From Sulfurivermis fontis (GTDB lineage: Bacteria; Pseudomonadota; Gammaproteobacteria; Thiohalomonadales; Thiohalomonadaceae): a stretch of DNA of 64,000 nt. Location: positions 3,092,501 to 3,156,500 of the forward strand of contig NZ_AP018724.1 of the NCBI RefSeq assembly GCF_004001245.1, given 5' to 3'. Position numbers and translations under genes: made by a program. Below the pieces are notes generated by a model, which was not told the origin of the DNA, made no database searches, and saw only the letters and a list, made by a program, of their open reading frames with translations. Positions 48,702-62,250 of this stretch are shown here, in pieces; positions within the stretch are counted from its first letter, which is position 1, and every line of letters starts with the position of its first letter.

Positions 48702-48980
48702 CGTTTCTGCACCGTATTGACCACACCGGATCGCAGCGCTACGTTGGTGCTCCACTCACCGCTCAGGAGAATTGAATGGACGCCTCCCACCCCGTGAGCG
48801 CTGAACACGAGTTATCCGGCGCGCTGGCCGTCTTCGGTATGGAGGGACCTGCGGCGCCCGGCGCCGTGGATAGCTTTGCGGTGTGGGTGGGATGAAGGTG
48901 GACCCTCACGGGCCGACGGCATCGAAGTGCCCAAGGTGGAAGATACTGAAGGTCTTCACAGGCAAACCGGAGGGTCCGAA

Positions 48981-50006
48981 ATGAATGGTAGCAAAACGGT
49001 CGTTGGCGTGGATATCGCCAAGCGGGTATTTCAGTTGCACTGGATCGACATGGAGACCGGAGAGATCGTGAGCCTGCAGCTCAAGCGCGAGAAGTTCCTC
49101 GAACACTTCGCTAACCGGCAACCATGCCTCATTGGGATGGAAGCCTGCGGCGGTGCGCAGCACTGGGCGAGGAAACTCACGGCGCTGGGCCACCAGGTCA
49201 AGCTCCTGCCAGGCAAGGCGGTGAAGCCGTTCGTCACCGGCAACAAGAACGACCGGCAGGACGCGCGGGCGATCTGGACAGCGGTGCAGCAGCCGCACGT
49301 CAAGGCGGTGGCGATCAAGACGGAAGAACAGCAGGCCATCCTGGCGCTGCACCGCATGAGGAGCCAGTTGGTCAAGTTCCGCACCGCGCAGATTAACGGC
49401 CTGCGGGGGTTGCTCGCCGAATACGGTGAAGTGATGCCGCAGGGCAAAGCGGGGGTCAGGAAGGGAATTGCTGCGGCTTTGGCCAGACTGGAAGACCGGC
49501 TGCCGGCAATGGTGATCGATACGTTGCGCGAGCAATGGGCGCGCATCGAGAAGCTGGATGGGGAAATCGCCGCCATCGAGCAGCGCATCCAGCTGTGGCT
49601 CAAGCAAGACGAAGCTTGCAAGCGAATCGCTGAAATTCCTGGTGTCGGGCCGCTGACCGCCACGGCGGCGGTCGCCATCATGGGCGACGCCAAAGCCTTC
49701 AAGTCGGGGCGAGAGTTCGCCGCCTTCGCCGGCCTGGTGCCGCGACAGGTGGGCACTGGTGGGCGCATCAAACTGCTCGGCATCAGCAAGCGCGGTGACA
49801 CCTACCTGCGCACCTTGCTGATTCACGGTGCGCGATCCGTGCTGACCCACGCCAAAGACCCCGGCCCGTGGGTCACGAAATTACGCCAGCGCCGGCCGCT
49901 GAATGTCGCGGTCGTGGCCCTGGCCAACAAGATGGCGCGAACGATCTGGGCGATGCTCGCCCATGAACGGACGTACCAAAAGGGATTCGTCAGTCAGCCG
50001 GCATAG
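48981..50006 (+). CDS. IS110-family transposase (recombinase), copy 1
   Basis: 341 residues from the ATG at 48981 (GGAGGG seven bases upstream); an upstream in-frame extension to 48876 is not needed. N-terminal RuvC-like DEDD part: VVGVDIAKRVFQLHW, LIGMEACGGAQHWARKL, NKNDRQDARAI; then a coiled-coil, and the C-terminal Tnp domain IAEIPGVGPLTATAAVAIMGD with GGRIKLLGISKRGDTYLRTLLIHGARSVL bearing the serine nucleophile. Intact. Confidence 0.95.
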   Translation: MNGSKTVVGVDIAKRVFQLHWIDMETGEIVSLQLKREKFLEHFANRQPCLIGMEACGGAQHWARKLTALGHQVKLLPGKAVKPFVTGNKNDRQDARAIWTAVQQPHVKAVAIKTEEQQAILALHRMRSQLVKFRTAQINGLRGLLAEYGEVMPQGKAGVRKGIAAALARLEDRLPAMVIDTLREQWARIEKLDGEIAAIEQRIQLWLKQDEACKRIAEIPGVGPLTATAAVAIMGDAKAFKSGREFAAFAGLVPRQVGTGGRIKLLGISKRGDTYLRTLLIHGARSVLTHAKDPGPWVTKLRQRRPLNVAVVALANKMARTIWAMLAHERTYQKGFVSQPA

Positions 50007-50019
50007 GTGCCTGACGAGT

Positions 50020-50250
50020 GTATCAACCACTTTGAAGAAAGGAGTGGCCGCCGTAAAGGTTGCGCAAGGTCGATAAAGTGTGATGGCAAACAGGTCAGAC
50101 CGTGACCCGCCAAACCTGTATGGCGGTAAGGACTTCGAGTCCTTCAGGAGAATGAGGCGCGGGTCAGCGGATTCCATCAGGGCCAGCAGGTCTATTCCTG
50201 CACAACAGGCCGGATATAGAACTGCAGCCTATCTGTCCCAACACACCAAA
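50020..50250 (+). ncRNA. Candidate bridge RNA of the IS110-type element, copy 1
   Basis: The 3' non-coding region folds well: TGACCCGC (50103-50110) pairs with GCGGGTCA (50159-50166), enclosing AAGGACT-TCG-AGTCCTT (50128-50144); CCGCCA/TGGCGG (50107-50126) competes with the outer stem; GCAGG/CCTGC (50186-50201) follows. IS110-family elements express a bridge RNA from a non-coding end that pairs with donor and target DNA; in the IS1111 group it is downstream of the recombinase. GGATATAGAACTGCAG near 50213 resembles the joined element ends. Boundaries are a guess. Copy 2 has the same at 55773-56003. Confidence 0.35.
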
Positions 50251-50289
50251 ATCGCCCTTGGCAAACGGGAGGCGTCCATATAGCCTGTC

Positions 50290-54040: not shown

Positions 54041-54421
54041 GTGGACAATCCCTGTCTGCGGTGCGGCGCATGTTGCGCCTACTATCGCGCATCGTTTTAC
54101 TGGACCGAGGCGGACCCCTTCCTCGGCGGCACCGTGCCGCCCGAGCTCACCGTGCCGCTTACTCCGCACCTCGTCGCCATGCGCGGCACCACCCATCCGC
54201 CCATGCGCTGCGTGGCCCTGGACGGCACCATCGGCGAACAGGTGTTGTGCACCATCTACCCGCGTCGCTCCAGCAGCTGCCATGACGTGGAGCCGTGGGA
54301 AGAGGACGGCAGCCCCGGCACGCGCTGCAGCAAGGCGCGCGCCGCCCACGGCCTGCCGCCGCTGGAACCACGCACCGACAGACCGGGACCGGGCGACAGC
54401 CCGCTGCCGCTCAGCGCATAA
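54041..54421 (+). CDS. YkgJ-family cysteine-cluster protein
   Basis: 126 residues from a GTG. N-terminal PCLRCGACCAYYRASFYW, a middle Cys in MRCVAL and LCTIYPRRSSSCHD, and GTRCSKARAAHGLPPLEP form the spread of cysteines of the YkgJ (zinc/iron-chelating) family. The CTIYP..R..SC block is the most typical. Biochemical role uncertain. IS110 copy 2 begins 100 bases downstream. Confidence 0.88.
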   Translation: MDNPCLRCGACCAYYRASFYWTEADPFLGGTVPPELTVPLTPHLVAMRGTTHPPMRCVALDGTIGEQVLCTIYPRRSSSCHDVEPWEEDGSPGTRCSKARAAHGLPPLEPRTDRPGPGDSPLPLSA

Positions 54422-54520
54422 AACGCAATTTCCCTCCCGCCAGCGGAACCGACCGGCATCCGGACCGCCTTCGGCACGAATTTTTCGCTACCATGGCGCC
54501 TTTCCCGAGACAGCCGCAGA

Positions 54521-56036
54521 AGAATTGAATGGACGCCTCCCACCCCGTGAGCGCTGAACACGAGTTATCCGGCGCGCTGGCCGTCTTCGGTATGGAGGGA
54601 CCTGCGGCGCCCGGCGCCGTGGATAGCTTTGCGGTGTGGGTGGGATGAAGGTGGACCCTCACGGGCCGACGGCATCGAAGTGCCCAAGGTGGAAGATACT
54701 GAAGGTCTTCACAGGCAAACCGGAGGGTCCGAAATGAATGGTAGCAAAACGGTCGTTGGCGTGGATATCGCCAAGCGGGTATTTCAGTTGCACTGGATCG
54801 ACATGGAGACCGGAGAGATCGTGAGCCTGCAGCTCAAGCGCGAGAAGTTCCTCGAACACTTCGCTAACCGGCAACCATGCCTCATTGGGATGGAAGCCTG
54901 CGGCGGTGCGCAGCACTGGGCGAGGAAACTCACGGCGCTGGGCCACCAGGTCAAGCTCCTGCCAGGCAAGGCGGTGAAGCCGTTCGTCACCGGCAACAAG
55001 AACGACCGGCAGGACGCGCGGGCGATCTGGACAGCGGTGCAGCAGCCGCACGTCAAGGCGGTGGCGATCAAGACGGAAGAACAGCAGGCCATCCTGGCGC
55101 TGCACCGCATGAGGAGCCAGTTGGTCAAGTTCCGCACCGCGCAGATTAACGGCCTGCGGGGGTTGCTCGCCGAATACGGTGAAGTGATGCCGCAGGGCAA
55201 AGCGGGGGTCAGGAAGGGAATTGCTGCGGCTTTGGCCAGACTGGAAGACCGGCTGCCGGCAATGGTGATCGATACGTTGCGCGAGCAATGGGCGCGCATC
55301 GAGAAGCTGGATGGGGAAATCGCCGCCATCGAGCAGCGCATCCAGCTGTGGCTCAAGCAAGACGAAGCTTGCAAGCGAATCGCTGAAATTCCTGGTGTCG
55401 GGCCGCTGACCGCCACGGCGGCGGTCGCCATCATGGGCGACGCCAAAGCCTTCAAGTCGGGGCGAGAGTTCGCCGCCTTCGCCGGCCTGGTGCCGCGACA
55501 GGTGGGCACTGGTGGGCGCATCAAACTGCTCGGCATCAGCAAGCGCGGTGACACCTACCTGCGCACCTTGCTGATTCACGGTGCGCGATCCGTGCTGACC
55601 CACGCCAAAGACCCCGGCCCGTGGGTCACGAAATTACGCCAGCGCCGGCCGCTGAATGTCGCGGTCGTGGCCCTGGCCAACAAGATGGCGCGAACGATCT
55701 GGGCGATGCTCGCCCATGAACGGACGTACCAAAAGGGATTCGTCAGTCAGCCGGCATAGGTGCCTGACGAGTGTATCAACCACTTTGAAGAAAGGAGTGG
55801 CCGCCGTAAAGGTTGCGCAAGGTCGATAAAGTGTGATGGCAAACAGGTCAGACCGTGACCCGCCAAACCTGTATGGCGGTAAGGACTTCGAGTCCTTCAG
55901 GAGAATGAGGCGCGGGTCAGCGGATTCCATCAGGGCCAGCAGGTCTATTCCTGCACAACAGGCCGGATATAGAACTGCAGCCTATCTGTCCCAACACACC
56001 AAAATCGCCCTTGGCAAACGGGAGGCGTCCATATAG
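54521..56036 (+). mobile_element. IS110-family (IS1111-like) insertion sequence, copy 2
   Basis: Same length and orientation as copy 1 and matching it throughout my reading, 5753 bases further on. Subterminal repeats at 54529 and 56020-56032. Flanks CAGA and TCTG give no target duplication. Ends six bases before the ATG of the EgtB-like gene. As a direct repeat of 1516 bases it can recombine with copy 1. Confidence 0.9.
54734..55759 (+). CDS. IS110-family transposase (recombinase), copy 2
   Basis: Translation identical to the first transposase over all 341 residues (DEDD part with VVGVDIAKRVF, NKNDRQDARAI; C-terminal serine in LIHGARSVL), so transposition or conversion was recent. Start at 54734 behind GGAGGG. 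Confidence 0.95.
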   Translation: MNGSKTVVGVDIAKRVFQLHWIDMETGEIVSLQLKREKFLEHFANRQPCLIGMEACGGAQHWARKLTALGHQVKLLPGKAVKPFVTGNKNDRQDARAIWTAVQQPHVKAVAIKTEEQQAILALHRMRSQLVKFRTAQINGLRGLLAEYGEVMPQGKAGVRKGIAAALARLEDRLPAMVIDTLREQWARIEKLDGEIAAIEQRIQLWLKQDEACKRIAEIPGVGPLTATAAVAIMGDAKAFKSGREFAAFAGLVPRQVGTGGRIKLLGISKRGDTYLRTLLIHGARSVLTHAKDPGPWVTKLRQRRPLNVAVVALANKMARTIWAMLAHERTYQKGFVSQPA

Positions 56037-56042
56037 TCTGCC

Positions 56043-57242
56043 ATGAAGTCACATGAACTGCTCGGTCAGTTGAGCGTAGTGCATCAGATGATGAGCCATC
56101 TCATCGACTCGGTGCCCGAGGACGACGGCTACCGCCGCCATCACCCCGACATTCCCCCGCTCGCCTGGCTGCTGGGCCGCGCCGTGTATCTGGAGACCTA
56201 CTGGCTGCGCGAGGTGGTGCAACAGGACGCCAGTATGACGGCACGGGTGCGACCGCTGTTCGGTACCGGTGCAGAGCTGACGGATGCACTGATGCAGCAG
56301 CTGCCGCCGCGTGAACACCTGCTCAACTGGGCGCTGGAGTTGCAGGACCAGAACACCATGCTGCTGGCCAACCCGGCCCTGCTGCCACCCCATGCACTGG
56401 TACGGGAACAGCGCCTGCTGCCCCTGCTGTTGCAGCAGCAGGCGCAACTGTGCGAGCTGATGCTGGCCCAGCTCAGTGAGCGGCGCCTGCAGCAAAGCGT
56501 CGCTTACCGCGTCACCACACCGCTGCGAGCGGCGGCGCCGTCGCAGGACCATGTCGACGTGCAGCAGGGACATTACCGCGTCGGCGCCAAGGACGACCCG
56601 GCGGCACTGGACAACGAACTGCCGCCACAGATGGTGCACCTGCACAGCTTCCGCATCGACACCCGCCCGGTGAGCAACGGCGCCTGGCTGTCTTTCATCG
56701 AGGCCGGCGGCTACGACACACAAGCGTGGTGGAGCGAGGCCGGCTGGCACTGGCGACAGAGCCAGCCCCCCCACCCCCATCACTGGCGCCGCGACAGCGC
56801 CGGGCTGTGGTACGGCGTCGGTCTCAACGGCCCCTTCGACCTGCTGGCGGAGGACGCCGTCTACGGCATCAGCCTGTACGAGGCCGAGGCCTACGCGCAG
56901 TGGGTATCATCGCTGGGCGGCAAGCTGGCCGGTGCCGTGGTGCAGCACGAATACCAGTGGGAGGTGGCGGCGCGCACCCAGGCCATCAGCGACTACGGCC
57001 GCGCCTGGGAATGGTGCGCCAACCCGTTCCACCGCTACACCGGCTATCAGGCACCCGCCGATGCGGAAGCGGCCACGATGGATTTCGATGCCGGCCATCA
57101 CAGCCTGCGCGGCGGCGGCCTGCACAGCCAGCGCATCCAGCGCCGCCGCAGCTATCGCCACCATGCCGCTCCCGGGCAACGCCATTTGTTCAGCGGCACG
57201 CGGCTGGTGTTCCCGCCCTCCAAGATGCCATGGCATAAATAG
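56043..57242 (+). CDS. EgtB-like (DinB + FGE-sulfatase) protein lacking the iron-binding histidines
   Basis: 399 residues. N-terminal four-helix DinB-like part (PDIPPLAWLLGRAVYLETYWLREVV; LLPLLLQQQAQLCELMLAQL) and C-terminal formylglycine-enzyme-like domain (DTRPVSNGAWLSFIEAGGY; YEAEAYAQWVSSLGGKLAGAVVQHEYQWEVAAR; WEWCANPFHRYTGY; LRGGGLHSQRIQRRRSYRHH; LFSGTRLVF). This is the layout of EgtB/SenA sulfoxide and selenoxide synthases, but where EgtB has LGH and HEQQHQE iron ligands this protein reads LGR and QQQAQLC. So an enzyme of this fold without the usual iron site, or not iron-dependent. IS110 copy 2 separates it from its native upstream region. Confidence 0.75.
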   Translation: MKSHELLGQLSVVHQMMSHLIDSVPEDDGYRRHHPDIPPLAWLLGRAVYLETYWLREVVQQDASMTARVRPLFGTGAELTDALMQQLPPREHLLNWALELQDQNTMLLANPALLPPHALVREQRLLPLLLQQQAQLCELMLAQLSERRLQQSVAYRVTTPLRAAAPSQDHVDVQQGHYRVGAKDDPAALDNELPPQMVHLHSFRIDTRPVSNGAWLSFIEAGGYDTQAWWSEAGWHWRQSQPPHPHHWRRDSAGLWYGVGLNGPFDLLAEDAVYGISLYEAEAYAQWVSSLGGKLAGAVVQHEYQWEVAARTQAISDYGRAWEWCANPFHRYTGYQAPADAEAATMDFDAGHHSLRGGGLHSQRIQRRRSYRHHAAPGQRHLFSGTRLVFPPSKMPWHK

Positions 57243-57335
57243 GAAGCGGTGCGCATTCAACGTAGCGCAACGGTGGCTATAGTTATCGCAGCTATGCACC
57301 CATCAAGACAGGCAGCCGCCTGAAGGAGCCTTGAC

Positions 57336-57542
57336 ATGAAACGCCTCGCCCTATTGCTCACGCTCACCCTGCTCGCCGGCTGCGGCGTGGAAACGGCATC
57401 GACCGCCGCCACGGCCGGTGCCGCCAAGGCCAGGGAAGCCGAACAGGCACAAAACACCAAGGAGCGGATGCAGCAACAGATCGATGCCGCCAGCGCCCAG
57501 GCGGCCGCACGCCTGCAGGCCGCCGACGAAGCAGCGCGCTGA
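57336..57542 (+). CDS. Small Ala-rich lipoprotein
   Basis: 68 residues. Lipobox LLAGC at 12-16, then an Ala/Gln-rich helix (KAREAEQAQNTKERMQQQIDAASAQAAARLQAADEAAR) that could form a coiled coil. AGGAG precedes the ATG. Resembles small outer-membrane lipoproteins by size only. Confidence 0.75.
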   Translation: MKRLALLLTLTLLAGCGVETASTAATAGAAKAREAEQAQNTKERMQQQIDAASAQAAARLQAADEAAR

Positions 57543-57572
57543 TCCCGTCACGCCAGCGCAGCGCGGACTGCG

Positions 57573-58736
57573 CTATGCCGGCCAATACTCTGTCGCGATC
57601 CCTGCGCCGAGGTCGGCCTCGACGAGGCGGCGCCGCACCTCCAGCAACTTTTCAATCAGGGCCGGCTCGCGCTGCTCGTAGGCTGCCGCATCAGGGACAC
57701 GGCTGACCACCACACCGAGCAGCTCGGTGATGGCGTTGCCGATGGAGTTCTGCGAAATGGTGACAATCAGCTTGCCCTGCTCGTTGCGGTAGATGAGCTG
57801 CTTGAAGGCCGGCTGCCAGCGGATGGCATTGGCATAGGCCGGGTCCTTGATGCAGCGGTCCCGCACCATCTTCGCAGTCTTGAGGAAGTCGTTGTCGAAC
57901 AACAGCACACTCTCCACTTGGGCGGGGAAATACAGATCCGGCAACATCGGGGCATTGCGGCTGGACACCTGCGAGAAGAAGGTGCGGTAGAAATCGAGAA
58001 AGCCCTTCAGCACCAGATCGTATTCATGCCAGAAGCGCACATCCTGCAACGCCGCCGCGCCGCCCGGCACCTCCCAACTCGGCAAACCCTGCGGATAGCC
58101 GGTCAGGTCGATGCGCGCCGAGTCATCACTCACCGGACGCAGCACCTCTAGATGCAACGCCTTGCAGATGAACTCGCGGTACACGCCGTGCATGTATTTC
58201 TCGAACAGCGAATGCTGGCCGCCGTCGGTGAGGTTGGGGTTGTTGGGGTCGGCCAGCTTGGCGTTGCGCAGCTGTTCCATGGGGAACACGATGAAGTGAT
58301 TGTGCAGCATGCGGATGCTGGGCACACCGGGCGAGGTGAGCGGCCAGGTGGCATCGAGACTGGCCTCGCCCGCCAACACCAGATGCTGCTGCGGGTCCGG
58401 GTACTGCTCCAGCATGTAGTCGATGATGATCTGGTTCATGCGATTCCACACGTGGCGCACATGATCCGGCACCTGGGTGCGGCGCACCGGACGGCCGAGG
58501 GGATTGAGGATCGTCTGCGAGGTGTTGTAGATGATGGAGGTGTCGAACTCGGTGCTGTGACCCAGGGCCTTGCGATACAGCAGCAGGTTCTCGGGGTTGA
58601 GCAACAGGCCATTGTTGTGCACCAGATCATTGAGATTCTCGGTGCTGTTGAAGAATTCGTTGGGCTTCATCCCCTCCGGCACCTCCAGCGGAATGGGACG
58701 GAAGGGGGTGACGATCTCGCGTGGGCCGCACTGCAT
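57573..58736 (-). CDS. Unrecognised conserved-looking 387-residue protein
   Basis: No signal peptide or membrane helix. Notable stretches: EGMKPNEFFNSTENLNDLVHNNGLLLNPENLLLYRKALG, WNRMNQIIIDYMLEQYPDPQQHLVLAGEASLDATWPLTSPGVPSIRMLHNHFIVFPMEQL, DLYFPAQVESVLLFDNDFLKTAKMVRDRC, and IYRNEQGKLIVTISQNSIGNAITELLGVVVSRVP. The HNHFIVFP segment is reminiscent of HIT/GalT-type histidine motifs, but I cannot place the family. Codon use looks native. Convergent with the small lipoprotein gene and divergent from the radical-SAM gene. Confidence 0.72.
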   Translation of the reverse strand: MQCGPREIVTPFRPIPLEVPEGMKPNEFFNSTENLNDLVHNNGLLLNPENLLLYRKALGHSTEFDTSIIYNTSQTILNPLGRPVRRTQVPDHVRHVWNRMNQIIIDYMLEQYPDPQQHLVLAGEASLDATWPLTSPGVPSIRMLHNHFIVFPMEQLRNAKLADPNNPNLTDGGQHSLFEKYMHGVYREFICKALHLEVLRPVSDDSARIDLTGYPQGLPSWEVPGGAAALQDVRFWHEYDLVLKGFLDFYRTFFSQVSSRNAPMLPDLYFPAQVESVLLFDNDFLKTAKMVRDRCIKDPAYANAIRWQPAFKQLIYRNEQGKLIVTISQNSIGNAITELLGVVVSRVPDAAAYEQREPALIEKLLEVRRRLVEADLGAGIATEYWPA

Positions 58737-58863
58737 GACTACACCTCAGACATTACTTTTATGGGCGCATAAGCCGTTGAAATGAAGTGATTTCGGGGGC
58801 TGCGCGCACCATAGCACCTTGCACTGCACAGCGGTATATGCACGAAGTGACACAGACGGCCAG

Positions 58864-59754
58864 GTGAAAAAATTGCCCATCGACTACGACCATCCGCTGT
58901 ACCGTCCGCCGGGCGAGAGCGACAACCTGATCATCCAGGCCACGCTGGGTTGCAGCTATAACCAGTGCAGCTTCTGCGCCATGTATCGCGGCAAGCACTA
59001 TCAGGCGCGGCCGCTGGAACAGGTGTACGCCGACATCGACGCCGCAGCACAGGACTGGCCCGATGCGCGCCGCCTGTTTCTCGCCGACGGTGATGCCCTC
59101 GCCTTGCCGACACCACACCTGCTGCAACTGCTGGATTATCTCGCCCTGCGTCTGCCGCGGATGACGCGTGTCTCCTGCTATGCCACGCCGGCCAATATCC
59201 GCCGCAAGTCGACCGCTGAACTCGCGCAATTGCGCGCACATAAACTGTCGTTGCTGTATGTGGGGATCGAATCAGGCTCGGCGCTGATCCTGAAGAAGAT
59301 CACCAAGGGCGCCACACCGCACGGCATCACCGCCGCATTGCATCAGGCACATGCTGCCGGGATGAGGATATCCGCCACGGTAATCCTCGGCCTCGGCGGC
59401 AGGGAGTACAGCACAGAACACATTACCGGCACCCTTGCCCTGCTCAACAGCGCACCGCTGACACAACTATCCACCCTGCAGCTGTATCTGGATGACGGCA
59501 TGCAATCGGAATTCGCACACAAGTTCGGCACACCGTTCGCGTTGCCGGATGATCACGCCCTGCTGTATGAGCAGCGGCGGCTCGTCGCCGGCCTGATGCC
59601 GCCGCAGGCCATCGTGTTCCGTTCCGATCACGCCTCCAATGCGCTGGCATTGCAAGGTGTATTACCCAGGGATCGCACCCGCCTGCTGGCCGCAATCGAC
59701 GCGGCCCGGGCCGGACGGCGGCCGTTGCGGCCGCCGCATCAACGCGGCCTTTGA
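58864..59754 (+). CDS. Radical SAM protein
   Basis: About 296 residues from the GTG at 58864; a TTG at 58819 is a less likely alternative. The 4Fe-4S site ATLGCSYNQCSFCAMYRGK (CxxxCxxC) is clear, followed by VYADIDAAAQDWPDARRLFLADGDAL and YVGIESGSALILKKITKGAT with the SAM-binding stretch, and TVILGLGGREYSTEHI. Resembles the oxygen-independent-coproporphyrinogen/HemN-like broad group; substrate unknown. Confidence 0.85.
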   Translation: MKKLPIDYDHPLYRPPGESDNLIIQATLGCSYNQCSFCAMYRGKHYQARPLEQVYADIDAAAQDWPDARRLFLADGDALALPTPHLLQLLDYLALRLPRMTRVSCYATPANIRRKSTAELAQLRAHKLSLLYVGIESGSALILKKITKGATPHGITAALHQAHAAGMRISATVILGLGGREYSTEHITGTLALLNSAPLTQLSTLQLYLDDGMQSEFAHKFGTPFALPDDHALLYEQRRLVAGLMPPQAIVFRSDHASNALALQGVLPRDRTRLLAAIDAARAGRRPLRPPHQRGL

Positions 59755-60341: not shown

Positions 60342-60378
60342 GTAGCGTAGAATGCCCTGCGCCACATTGATCCCGATC

Positions 60379-61890
60379 ATGACCGACATCGTTCTCGCCA
60401 CCCTCAACGCCAAATACCAGCATGCCTCCCTCGGCCTGCGCTATCTGCTCGCCAACATGGGCGAGCTGCGCCCGCAGACCCGGCTGATGGAATTCGTGTG
60501 GGATCAGCGCAGCACGGAGATCGCCGAGCGCCTGCTGACGGAACGGCCGCGCATCATCGGCCTGGGCGTCTACATCTGGAACGCGCGTGAAACCCTGCAA
60601 CTGGTCCAGGTATTGAAGGCGGTGGCGCCGGAGGTAATCATCGTGCTCGGCGGCCCGGAGGTGAGCTACGAACAGGAAGAGCAGGCCGTCGTGACGGCGG
60701 CCGACTACGTCATCGCCGGCCAGGGCGACCTGGCCTTCGCCGCCCTGTGCCAGCAGTTGCTGCACGGCGAACGGCCCGCACAGAAGATCATCCACGTCAC
60801 GCCGCCGCCGCTGGAGCAGATCAATCTGCCCTACGATGAGTACACGGATACCGACATCGCCCAGCGCCTGGTGTACGTAGAGGCCTCGCGCGGCTGCCCG
60901 TTCAAGTGCGAGTTCTGTCTCTCGGCCCTGGACAAGACAGCCTGGCCGTTTGAGCTGGAGCGCTTTCTTGCCGCGCTGGCGCGGCTGCACGCACGCGGCG
61001 TGCGCCATTTCAAATTCGTCGACCGCACCTTCAATCTCAACGTCAAGGCCAGCCGCCGCATCCTGCAATTCTTTCTCGACCGCCTGAGCGACGATCTGTT
61101 CCTGCACTTCGAGGTAATCCCCGATCACCTGCCCGAGGGCCTGAAGGAACTACTGGTGCGGTTCCCGCCGGGCACGCTGCAACTGGAGGTGGGTGTGCAG
61201 AGTTTCAATCCGGCGGTGCAGCAGCGCATCAGCCGCAAACAGGACAACGCGGCGACGGAGGCGAACCTGCGCTGGCTGCGCGCCCACAGCCACGCCCACC
61301 TGCACGCCGACCTCATCATCGGCCTGCCCGGCGAGGATCTCGCCAGCTTCGCCACCGGCTTCAACCGGCTGTGGGCGCTGCGGCCGCACGAGATCCAGGT
61401 GGGTACCCTGAAGCGCCTGCGCGGTGCGCCCATCGCGCGCCACACCGACGAGTTCGCCATGCGCTACGATCCGCAGCCGCCCTATACCCTGCTGGCCAAC
61501 CGCGACCTCGACTTCTCCACCATGCAAAGCCTGACGCGCTTCGCCCGCTACTGGGACCTAGTGGCCAACTCCGGCCGCTTCGGTCACGCCCTGCCCCTGC
61601 TGCTCGGTGACGATGCCTTCGGCCGTTTCCTCCAGTTCGCCGACTGGCTCTATGCGGCCACCGGCCAGACCCACAAGATCGCCCTGCCGCGTCTGTTCCA
61701 GTTGCTGCATCAAGCCCTGGTCGAGGTATTTGCAGTGCCGGAACAGGACAGCCTGACGGCCCTGGCGCGCGACTGCGCCGCCTTCGGTGCCAAGGGCTGC
61801 CCCGAATTTCTCCATGGCCACCTGCAGCAGGTGCAGCAGGCGGCGCGCCGCAACGCCCCGGTCCGGCAGGCGCGGCATCTGCAAAACTGA
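60379..61890 (+). CDS. B12-binding radical SAM protein (DUF4080-type)
   Basis: 503 residues from the ATG at 60379. N-terminal cobalamin-binding-like domain (DIVLATLNAKYQHASLGLRYLLANMGEL ... RIIGLGVYIWNARETLQLVQVLKAVAPEVIIVLGGPEVSYE), then the Fe-S site EASRGCPFKCEFCLSAL, YTFNL-like FVDRTFNLNVKASRRILQFFL, and a C-terminal DUF4080-like domain. Substrate unknown; such proteins often modify tRNA, lipids or cofactors. Confidence 0.88.
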   Translation: MTDIVLATLNAKYQHASLGLRYLLANMGELRPQTRLMEFVWDQRSTEIAERLLTERPRIIGLGVYIWNARETLQLVQVLKAVAPEVIIVLGGPEVSYEQEEQAVVTAADYVIAGQGDLAFAALCQQLLHGERPAQKIIHVTPPPLEQINLPYDEYTDTDIAQRLVYVEASRGCPFKCEFCLSALDKTAWPFELERFLAALARLHARGVRHFKFVDRTFNLNVKASRRILQFFLDRLSDDLFLHFEVIPDHLPEGLKELLVRFPPGTLQLEVGVQSFNPAVQQRISRKQDNAATEANLRWLRAHSHAHLHADLIIGLPGEDLASFATGFNRLWALRPHEIQVGTLKRLRGAPIARHTDEFAMRYDPQPPYTLLANRDLDFSTMQSLTRFARYWDLVANSGRFGHALPLLLGDDAFGRFLQFADWLYAATGQTHKIALPRLFQLLHQALVEVFAVPEQDSLTALARDCAAFGAKGCPEFLHGHLQQVQQAARRNAPVRQARHLQN

Positions 61891-61956: not shown

Positions 61957-62250
61957 TTAAACGCAGCCGGTCGGCTTGGGCAGGCCGCCGTACTTGGTGA
62001 TCGGCTTCATCGGGCCGGTCAGCCATAACTTGAACATCTCCTTCTGGTCCACCTCCAGGTACTTGGAGAACTTGCGGATCGGCGGCACCGAACCGAATTC
62101 CTCGTAGTACTCGCGGGCCTTCATGATCTGGTTCCACTTTTCGTCGGTCAGCTCGACGCCGTCGGCCTCGGCCATGGCACGACCGATTTCCGGGGTCCAC
62201 AGGTTCATGTTGGTGAGGTAACCGTCACCGTCACGTTCCGGCAGTTGCAT
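61957..62250 (-). CDS. DsrC/TusE-family protein keeping only the C-terminal cysteine
   Basis: 97 residues, GGAGGG seven bases before the ATG. WTPEIGRAMAEADGVELTDEKWNQIMKAREYYEEFGSVPPIRKFSKYLEVDQKEMFKLWLTGPMKPITKYGGLPKPTGCV is a short DsrC-family sequence. CysA (GCV end) is kept; the CysB position 11 residues before it is Thr (PITKYGG). That is the TusE-like pattern: a sulfur-relay partner of the TusBCD kind, or one of the multiple DsrC paralogues of sulfur oxidisers. Its sister at 4169-4507 has the opposite cysteine pattern. Own promoter and terminator visible. Confidence 0.88.
   Translation of the reverse strand: MQLPERDGDGYLTNMNLWTPEIGRAMAEADGVELTDEKWNQIMKAREYYEEFGSVPPIRKFSKYLEVDQKEMFKLWLTGPMKPITKYGGLPKPTGCV

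Follow-up and report, generated by a model that had tools for sequence, protein, structure and literature searches.

The closest described relatives of the protein analyzed here are EgtB, the selenoneine synthase SenA and OvoA, whose models were the nearest ones found for it in NCBIfam. EgtB, the sulfoxide synthase of the pathway to the antioxidant ergothioneine, combines a DinB-like bundle with an FGE-like domain, holds iron through three histidines and requires hercynine, which is supplied by EgtD. For the histidine triad, the catalytic Tyr377 and the substrate residues Arg87, Arg90 and Tyr380 of EgtB, we follow the roles given in PMC4768315 and PMC10903977. The FGE fold has also been re-used without its catalytic residues. 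The precedent is OCTIN, an FGE-domain protein that forms crystals in Mucorales and has relatives in bacteria; it is reported to be without the catalytic cysteines of FGE and to form assemblies (PMC5915273). Within the superfamily of OCTIN, the same source lists DinB-FGE proteins as a group of their own; the likeness to our case is one of published description. We found no EgtB relative without iron ligands among the titles and abstract openings of the literature matches listed, a search that left subscription journals mostly outside its scope.

We analyzed a 64,000-nucleotide stretch of the Sulfurivermis fontis genome (the window), which encodes a 399-amino acid protein related to EgtB. The gene and the codons discussed below are as follows.

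56043..57242, plus strand: EgtB-derived protein without the iron triad, 399 amino acids (ORF call, profile searches and AlphaFold2 model)
56178..56180, plus strand: codon of R46, in the column of the iron ligand His51 (alignments)
56280..56291, plus strand: codons of residues 80–83, spanning the columns of the substrate-binding Arg87 and Arg90, here T80 and L83 (alignments; role from PMC4768315)
56436..56450, plus strand: codons of residues 132–136, spanning the columns of the ligands His134 and His138, here Q132 and L136 (alignments)
57060..57062, plus strand: codon of D340, in the column of the catalytic Tyr377 (alignments)
57159..57161, plus strand: codon of H373, in the column of EgtB Asn414 (alignments)

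The protein consists of a DinB-like bundle (about residues 1–150) and an FGE-like domain (about residues 165–393). It remained below the curated cut-offs of all three NCBIfam models, with 186.7 bits for EgtB (TIGR03440, cut-off 360), 175.8 bits for SenA (NF041186, cut-off 420) and 76.5 bits for OvoA (TIGR04344, cut-off 400). An AlphaFold2 model built from 17 sequences reached a pLDDT of 76, with values below 50 at residues 317–340 and 342–373; part of the former active site falls within this poorly modelled stretch (317–373). Foldseek ranked SenA 8ryz and EgtB 6qki at the top. The model superimposed on EgtB 8qf6 over 342 residues with a Z score of 28.3 and an rmsd of 3.3, and the crystallised EgtB structures (4x8b; 6o6l/6o6m, 6qki/6qkj, 8qf6) matched it along the chain with Z scores of 27.1–28.3 at 22–23% identity. 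SenA (8k5i, 8k5j, 8ryz) has a similar fold, with Z scores of 26.3–26.9. A sequence-only reading of this gene had called the DinB and FGE-like parts complete. Structurally this applies to both parts, so that the EgtB architecture is present. In Pfam terms it applies to the FGE part alone: FGE-sulfatase was matched, whereas DinB_2 was absent from the matches at E ≤ 1. DinB_2 was likewise absent at E ≤ 0.01 from all three triad-less relatives checked and was matched at that threshold in both intact relatives and in one canonical EgtB.

The alignment to Mycolicibacterium thermoresistibile EgtB (4x8b) placed R46, Q132 and L136 in the columns of His51, His134 and His138, and in the family-HMM alignment the same three residues stand opposite the histidines of intact relatives. 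Two alignments thus bear out the earlier observation that the EgtB histidine ligands are missing and that the respective motifs read LGR and QQQAQLC. The three-histidine iron site that the crystallised EgtB proteins have, and the triad columns of SenA, are changed in this protein. The losses extend beyond the metal. Tyr377, Arg87, Arg90 and Tyr380 are replaced by D340, T80, L83 and A343, respectively; OvoA and type II EgtB likewise differ at some of these positions. We also followed the column of Asn414, which we count among the active-site columns. The histidines of the HHPDIPP motif had been named as possible ligands at shifted positions that would speak against the loss. This explanation fails, since H34 is a histidine in 39/39 of the triad-bearing relatives, where all three ligands are present, and in 16/26 of the triad-less ones, while H33 is a histidine in 3/26 of the latter. 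A salt bridge between Arg46 and Glu132 in place of the metal, with arginine paired to glutamate or aspartate in 12/26 rows and to glutamine in 5/26, would be suggestive only.

Relatives were collected from three sources. A genome-contig search gave 18 loci, including a cyanobacterial one that was matched only distantly. Within the own family some match was present in 16 of 20 genomes, and in 13 of 20 at E ≤ 1e-60. A class sample of 369 genomes contained 50 with a match at E ≤ 1e-50. Nine of these 50 carry a triad-less gene; 39 of the other 41 entered the tree with all three histidines kept, and the remaining two genes run off their contigs and were left unscored. Loci L002–L006 and L010 hold the same genes as L021–L025 and L027. 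L007 (the same gene as L088), L031 (a split gene) and L108 and L109 (incomplete because the contig ends) were left out of the tree.

In the tree, calculated with the triad columns masked, all 26 triad-less rows formed a single branch (SH-aLRT 100) nested among 39 rows that all have the triad. Canonical EgtB and SenA fell outside both groups, though the search was a quick one without bootstrap and SenA and 4x8b sit on long branches of unsure placement. As the loss of the triad is common to 26 of 26 members of one clade, it goes beyond chance. The His51, His134 and His138 columns hold histidine in 39/39 intact rows each, compared to 1/26, 2/26 and 0/26 triad-less rows. Twenty-three triad-less rows have none of the ligand histidines and three have one (the first in L085, the second in L027 and L086). 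The other functional columns show the same division: Tyr377 is kept in 39/39 intact versus 5/26 triad-less rows, Tyr380 in 37/39 versus 0/26, Arg90 in 39/39 versus 1/26 and Asn414 in 39/39 versus 3/26. Residues retained in both groups include W42, E51, W54, D190, E192, W248, E323, W324, C325 and R372. In the class sample the members of the clade fall under four family codes. Record titles of its loci include Thiohalomonas, Sedimenticola, Thiodiazotropha, Endoriftia, Lamprocystis, Thiosymbion, Cocleimonas and Thiotrichaceae, and many are metagenome-assembled genomes. The bacteria of the clade thus mostly look like sulfur oxidisers.

The intact relatives, an EgtB-like sister group from Gammaproteobacteria, are homologous to the triad-less proteins over the whole chain and of similar length, and nadC lies near some loci of both groups. 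All five sister-group members tested scored below the EgtB and SenA cut-offs. The sister group has the three-histidine site, Tyr377, Arg90 and Asn414, mostly together with egtC and often with egtD, whereas the triad-less clade has mostly lost these residues and neither neighbour was found there. We counted neighbours by tblastn over 33 intact and 25 triad-less loci, a set that differs from the tree rows in taking in L031, L108 and L109 and in omitting L009, L011 and eight intact genes with short loci. An egtC-like gene adjoins the EgtB-like gene in 29/33 intact and 0/25 triad-less loci, and egtD does so in 19/33 and 0/25; EgtC and EgtD exceeded their curated cut-offs at two loci each. The fetched stretches are unequal and some are short, with two of the 33 intact loci cut within the gene, so that the absence of a neighbour from any one locus means little. 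nadC was nearby in 21/33 intact and 7/25 triad-less loci. The seven triad-less loci with nadC (L026, L030, L032, L036, L082, L084 and L086) also have an FKBP gene near the EgtB-like gene, and five of them have antiporter-like genes; in intact loci FKBP was near in 5/33 and antiporter-like genes in 3/33. This context suggests that, for part of the clade, we are looking at the same gene at its old place, an argument that rests on part of the data because 18/25 triad-less loci have no nadC in the stretch and FKBP and antiporter genes are rare in intact loci.

The sequence-only reading had proposed a neighbourhood search for an EgtD-like methyltransferase. Carried out here, it found egtD beside the intact genes as counted above, while EgtD (PF10017) was unmatched at E ≤ 0.001 in the S. 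fontis genome, which is a single contig with a completeness of 100. The EgtD that would supply hercynine to an EgtB is thus lacking in this genome. A second PF03781 protein was not found in this complete genome either. EgtD was matched in 20/21 genomes with the intact gene, two of these matches being partial (G104 and G227). Among genomes with the triad-less gene it was full-length in 6/18, with 12/18 having no full-length match, and in five of these six (G015, G018, G019, G366 and G103) a canonical EgtB adjoins EgtD, away from the triad-less gene. The sixth, G012, is the exception: its EgtD (PF10017) gene (L114, G012:C78) has no canonical EgtB within the 12 kb examined.

The triad-less gene was examined for signs of constraint. 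Nei-Gojobori dN/dS was 0.12–0.25 in eight unsaturated triad-less pairs (a ninth was saturated) and 0.14–0.19 in three intact pairs; as sequences recur in more than one pair, these values are not independent of each other. Constraint was seen in both domains, and the 26 triad-less tree rows have full-length frames. These values suggest that the triad-less gene is maintained under selection. Against maintenance in every strain stand two cases. In G007 (G007:C41, L031 8001–9199) the gene is divided between two overlapping frames and may therefore be broken or mis-assembled. In S. fontis itself an insertion sequence interrupts the leader.

54521..56036, plus strand: IS110-family element of 1516 bp (Pfam), with its right end 6 bp before the start codon of the EgtB-like gene

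This element has 11 near-identical copies in the genome, two in the window (48768–50283 and 54521–56036) and nine more at L120–L128; a full copy was not found in the 19 other family genomes searched. In all 11 copies a same-sense ATG starts 6–8 nucleotides past the right end, and in eight of them this ATG opens a frame of at least 90 amino acids. The left flank ends in GG in 9/11 copies. The element's own first ATG lies 8 nucleotides after its left end and opens a frame of 39 amino acids. The element thus appears to home into the gap between the ribosome-binding site and the start codon. No sigma-70-like promoter was found in 55700–57700, and both Rfam matches in 54400–56200 were below their gathering scores.

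Taken together, we consider it likely that the protein is an EgtB-derived pseudoenzyme that has been retained in a binding or scaffold role without catalysis. The earlier proposal that the iron site was lost with a shift of function is strengthened by the clade-wide loss of the triad and of catalytic and substrate residues, by the low dN/dS and by egtC and egtD not adjoining the gene. Of the new roles it had offered, binding or scaffolding would be the likeliest remaining option, and another metal site received little support. The gene could instead be decaying and on its way out, as the relaxed catalytic columns, the split in G007 and the IS110 copy just before the start in S. fontis would allow. 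We regard this as highly unlikely, given the dN/dS range, the full-length frames of the tree rows and the distribution of a single clade over four family codes.

Two further explanations keep a chemical function. The protein could still be an enzyme that performs other, iron-free chemistry with the unchanged FGE-domain residues C325, H302 and E303. C325 and E303 are invariant in 26/26 triad-less and 39/39 intact rows and H302 is present in 26/26 and 35/39, and Q301, Q305 and Q363 are newly conserved mainly in the triad-less clade. However, the unchanged residues are common to the intact relatives and may therefore be structural, and only 12 positions passed the test for new conservation, among them one histidine and no cysteine, aspartate or glutamate. 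We therefore think an iron-free enzyme improbable. A different metal held through new ligands is less probable still, although some candidate residues stand out. H92 was gained in 24/26 triad-less versus 0/39 intact rows and H177 in 22/26 versus 7/39, which are the clearest gains among histidine, cysteine, aspartate and glutamate in the clade. Smaller rises were seen for H361 (25/26 versus 17/39), D251 (24/26 versus 18/39) and H330 (20/26 versus 14/39); H330 and H361 lie in the poorly modelled part at 317–373. The gained residues are scattered over both domains, however, and the three old ligand columns hold mainly arginine, glutamate or glutamine, and leucine. Column conservation over the 26 triad-less and 39 intact rows thus revealed no clear new metal site.

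For the pseudoenzyme we propose the following course. The ancestor-like state is represented by the closest intact-triad relatives, whose genes lie mostly beside egtC and often beside egtD and nadC. In one gammaproteobacterial clade, where egtC and egtD were not found beside the gene, the iron triad was lost in all members, and the catalytic tyrosine and the substrate-binding residues went in most of them, while the fold stayed and dN/dS is low. With iron and the sulfoxide-synthase pocket gone, hercynine could presumably no longer be joined to a thiol, and the protein would now act by binding a ligand or a partner protein.

Such a partner should be sought first in sulfur-carrier traffic, since every clade genome of the class sample has dsrA and some members of the clade encode a DsrC/TusE-like protein beside the EgtB-like gene. 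In the 369-genome class sample dsrA was above cut-off in 9/9 triad-less genomes versus 103/360 others. It was also found in 18/41 genomes with the intact gene, and the link may therefore be lineage history. The candidate partner is encoded in the window as follows.

61957..62250, minus strand: single-Cys DsrC/TusE-like protein, whose homologue immediately precedes the EgtB-like gene in L026, L030, L032 and L082

This protein has one conserved C-terminal cysteine; single-Cys TusE-like proteins are treated in PMC8190135. Its gene was near 10/25 triad-less versus 0/33 intact loci. In the class sample a close match (at least 172 bits) was found in 5/9 triad-less versus 31/360 other genomes, and a match at E ≤ 1e-30 in 5/9 versus 38/360. 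When only genomes with dsrA are compared, a weak excess is left (5/9 versus 24/103, Fisher p 0.05 with relatedness ignored), and the own-family genomes G003, G004 and G005 have no close match. With a close match in just 5/9 triad-less genomes, the DsrC/TusE-like protein is ruled out as an obligatory partner; as a partner of the EgtB-derived protein it is possible. We put forward tentatively, and think rather unlikely in this full form, that the iron centre was lost a single time, in the ancestor of a dsrA-bearing group of Gammaproteobacteria, and that the EgtB fold now serves as a scaffold or receptor to which a single-Cys DsrC/TusE-like sulfur carrier, or the cargo of this carrier, binds.

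Other genes of the window also have homologues near EgtB-like genes.

58819..59754, plus strand: radical SAM protein, with a homologue adjoining the EgtB-like gene in L036

A gene for a CxxCxxCC protein, putatively zinc- or iron-chelating, lies at 54041–54421 on the plus strand; in L021, 78 bp separate the end of its homologue from the start of the EgtB-like gene that follows, and in the window the IS110 copy stands between the two. A 387-amino acid protein encoded at 57573–58736 (minus strand) has no family match above cut-off; L021, L022 and L024 have homologues of it close to their EgtB-like genes, and the candidate neighbour cluster c15 turned out to be a shadow frame of this gene. A B12-binding radical SAM protein with a DUF4080 tail (60352–61890, plus strand) was below the curated cut-off of each of the 25 NCBIfam models listed for it. 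As general partners, the radical SAM (5/25 loci), HutZ-like (3/25 loci), CxxCxxCC (four loci) and AAA ATPase (three loci) neighbours are too rare.

The triad-less clade would represent a clear case of a bacterial enzyme that became a conserved non-enzyme while an ancestor-like gene cluster survives in relatives for comparison. For its members, annotation as a nonheme iron enzyme or as part of ergothioneine synthesis would be misleading. If the link to a sulfur carrier is true, it would point to an unknown component around the Dsr-type sulfur metabolism of symbionts and purple sulfur bacteria.
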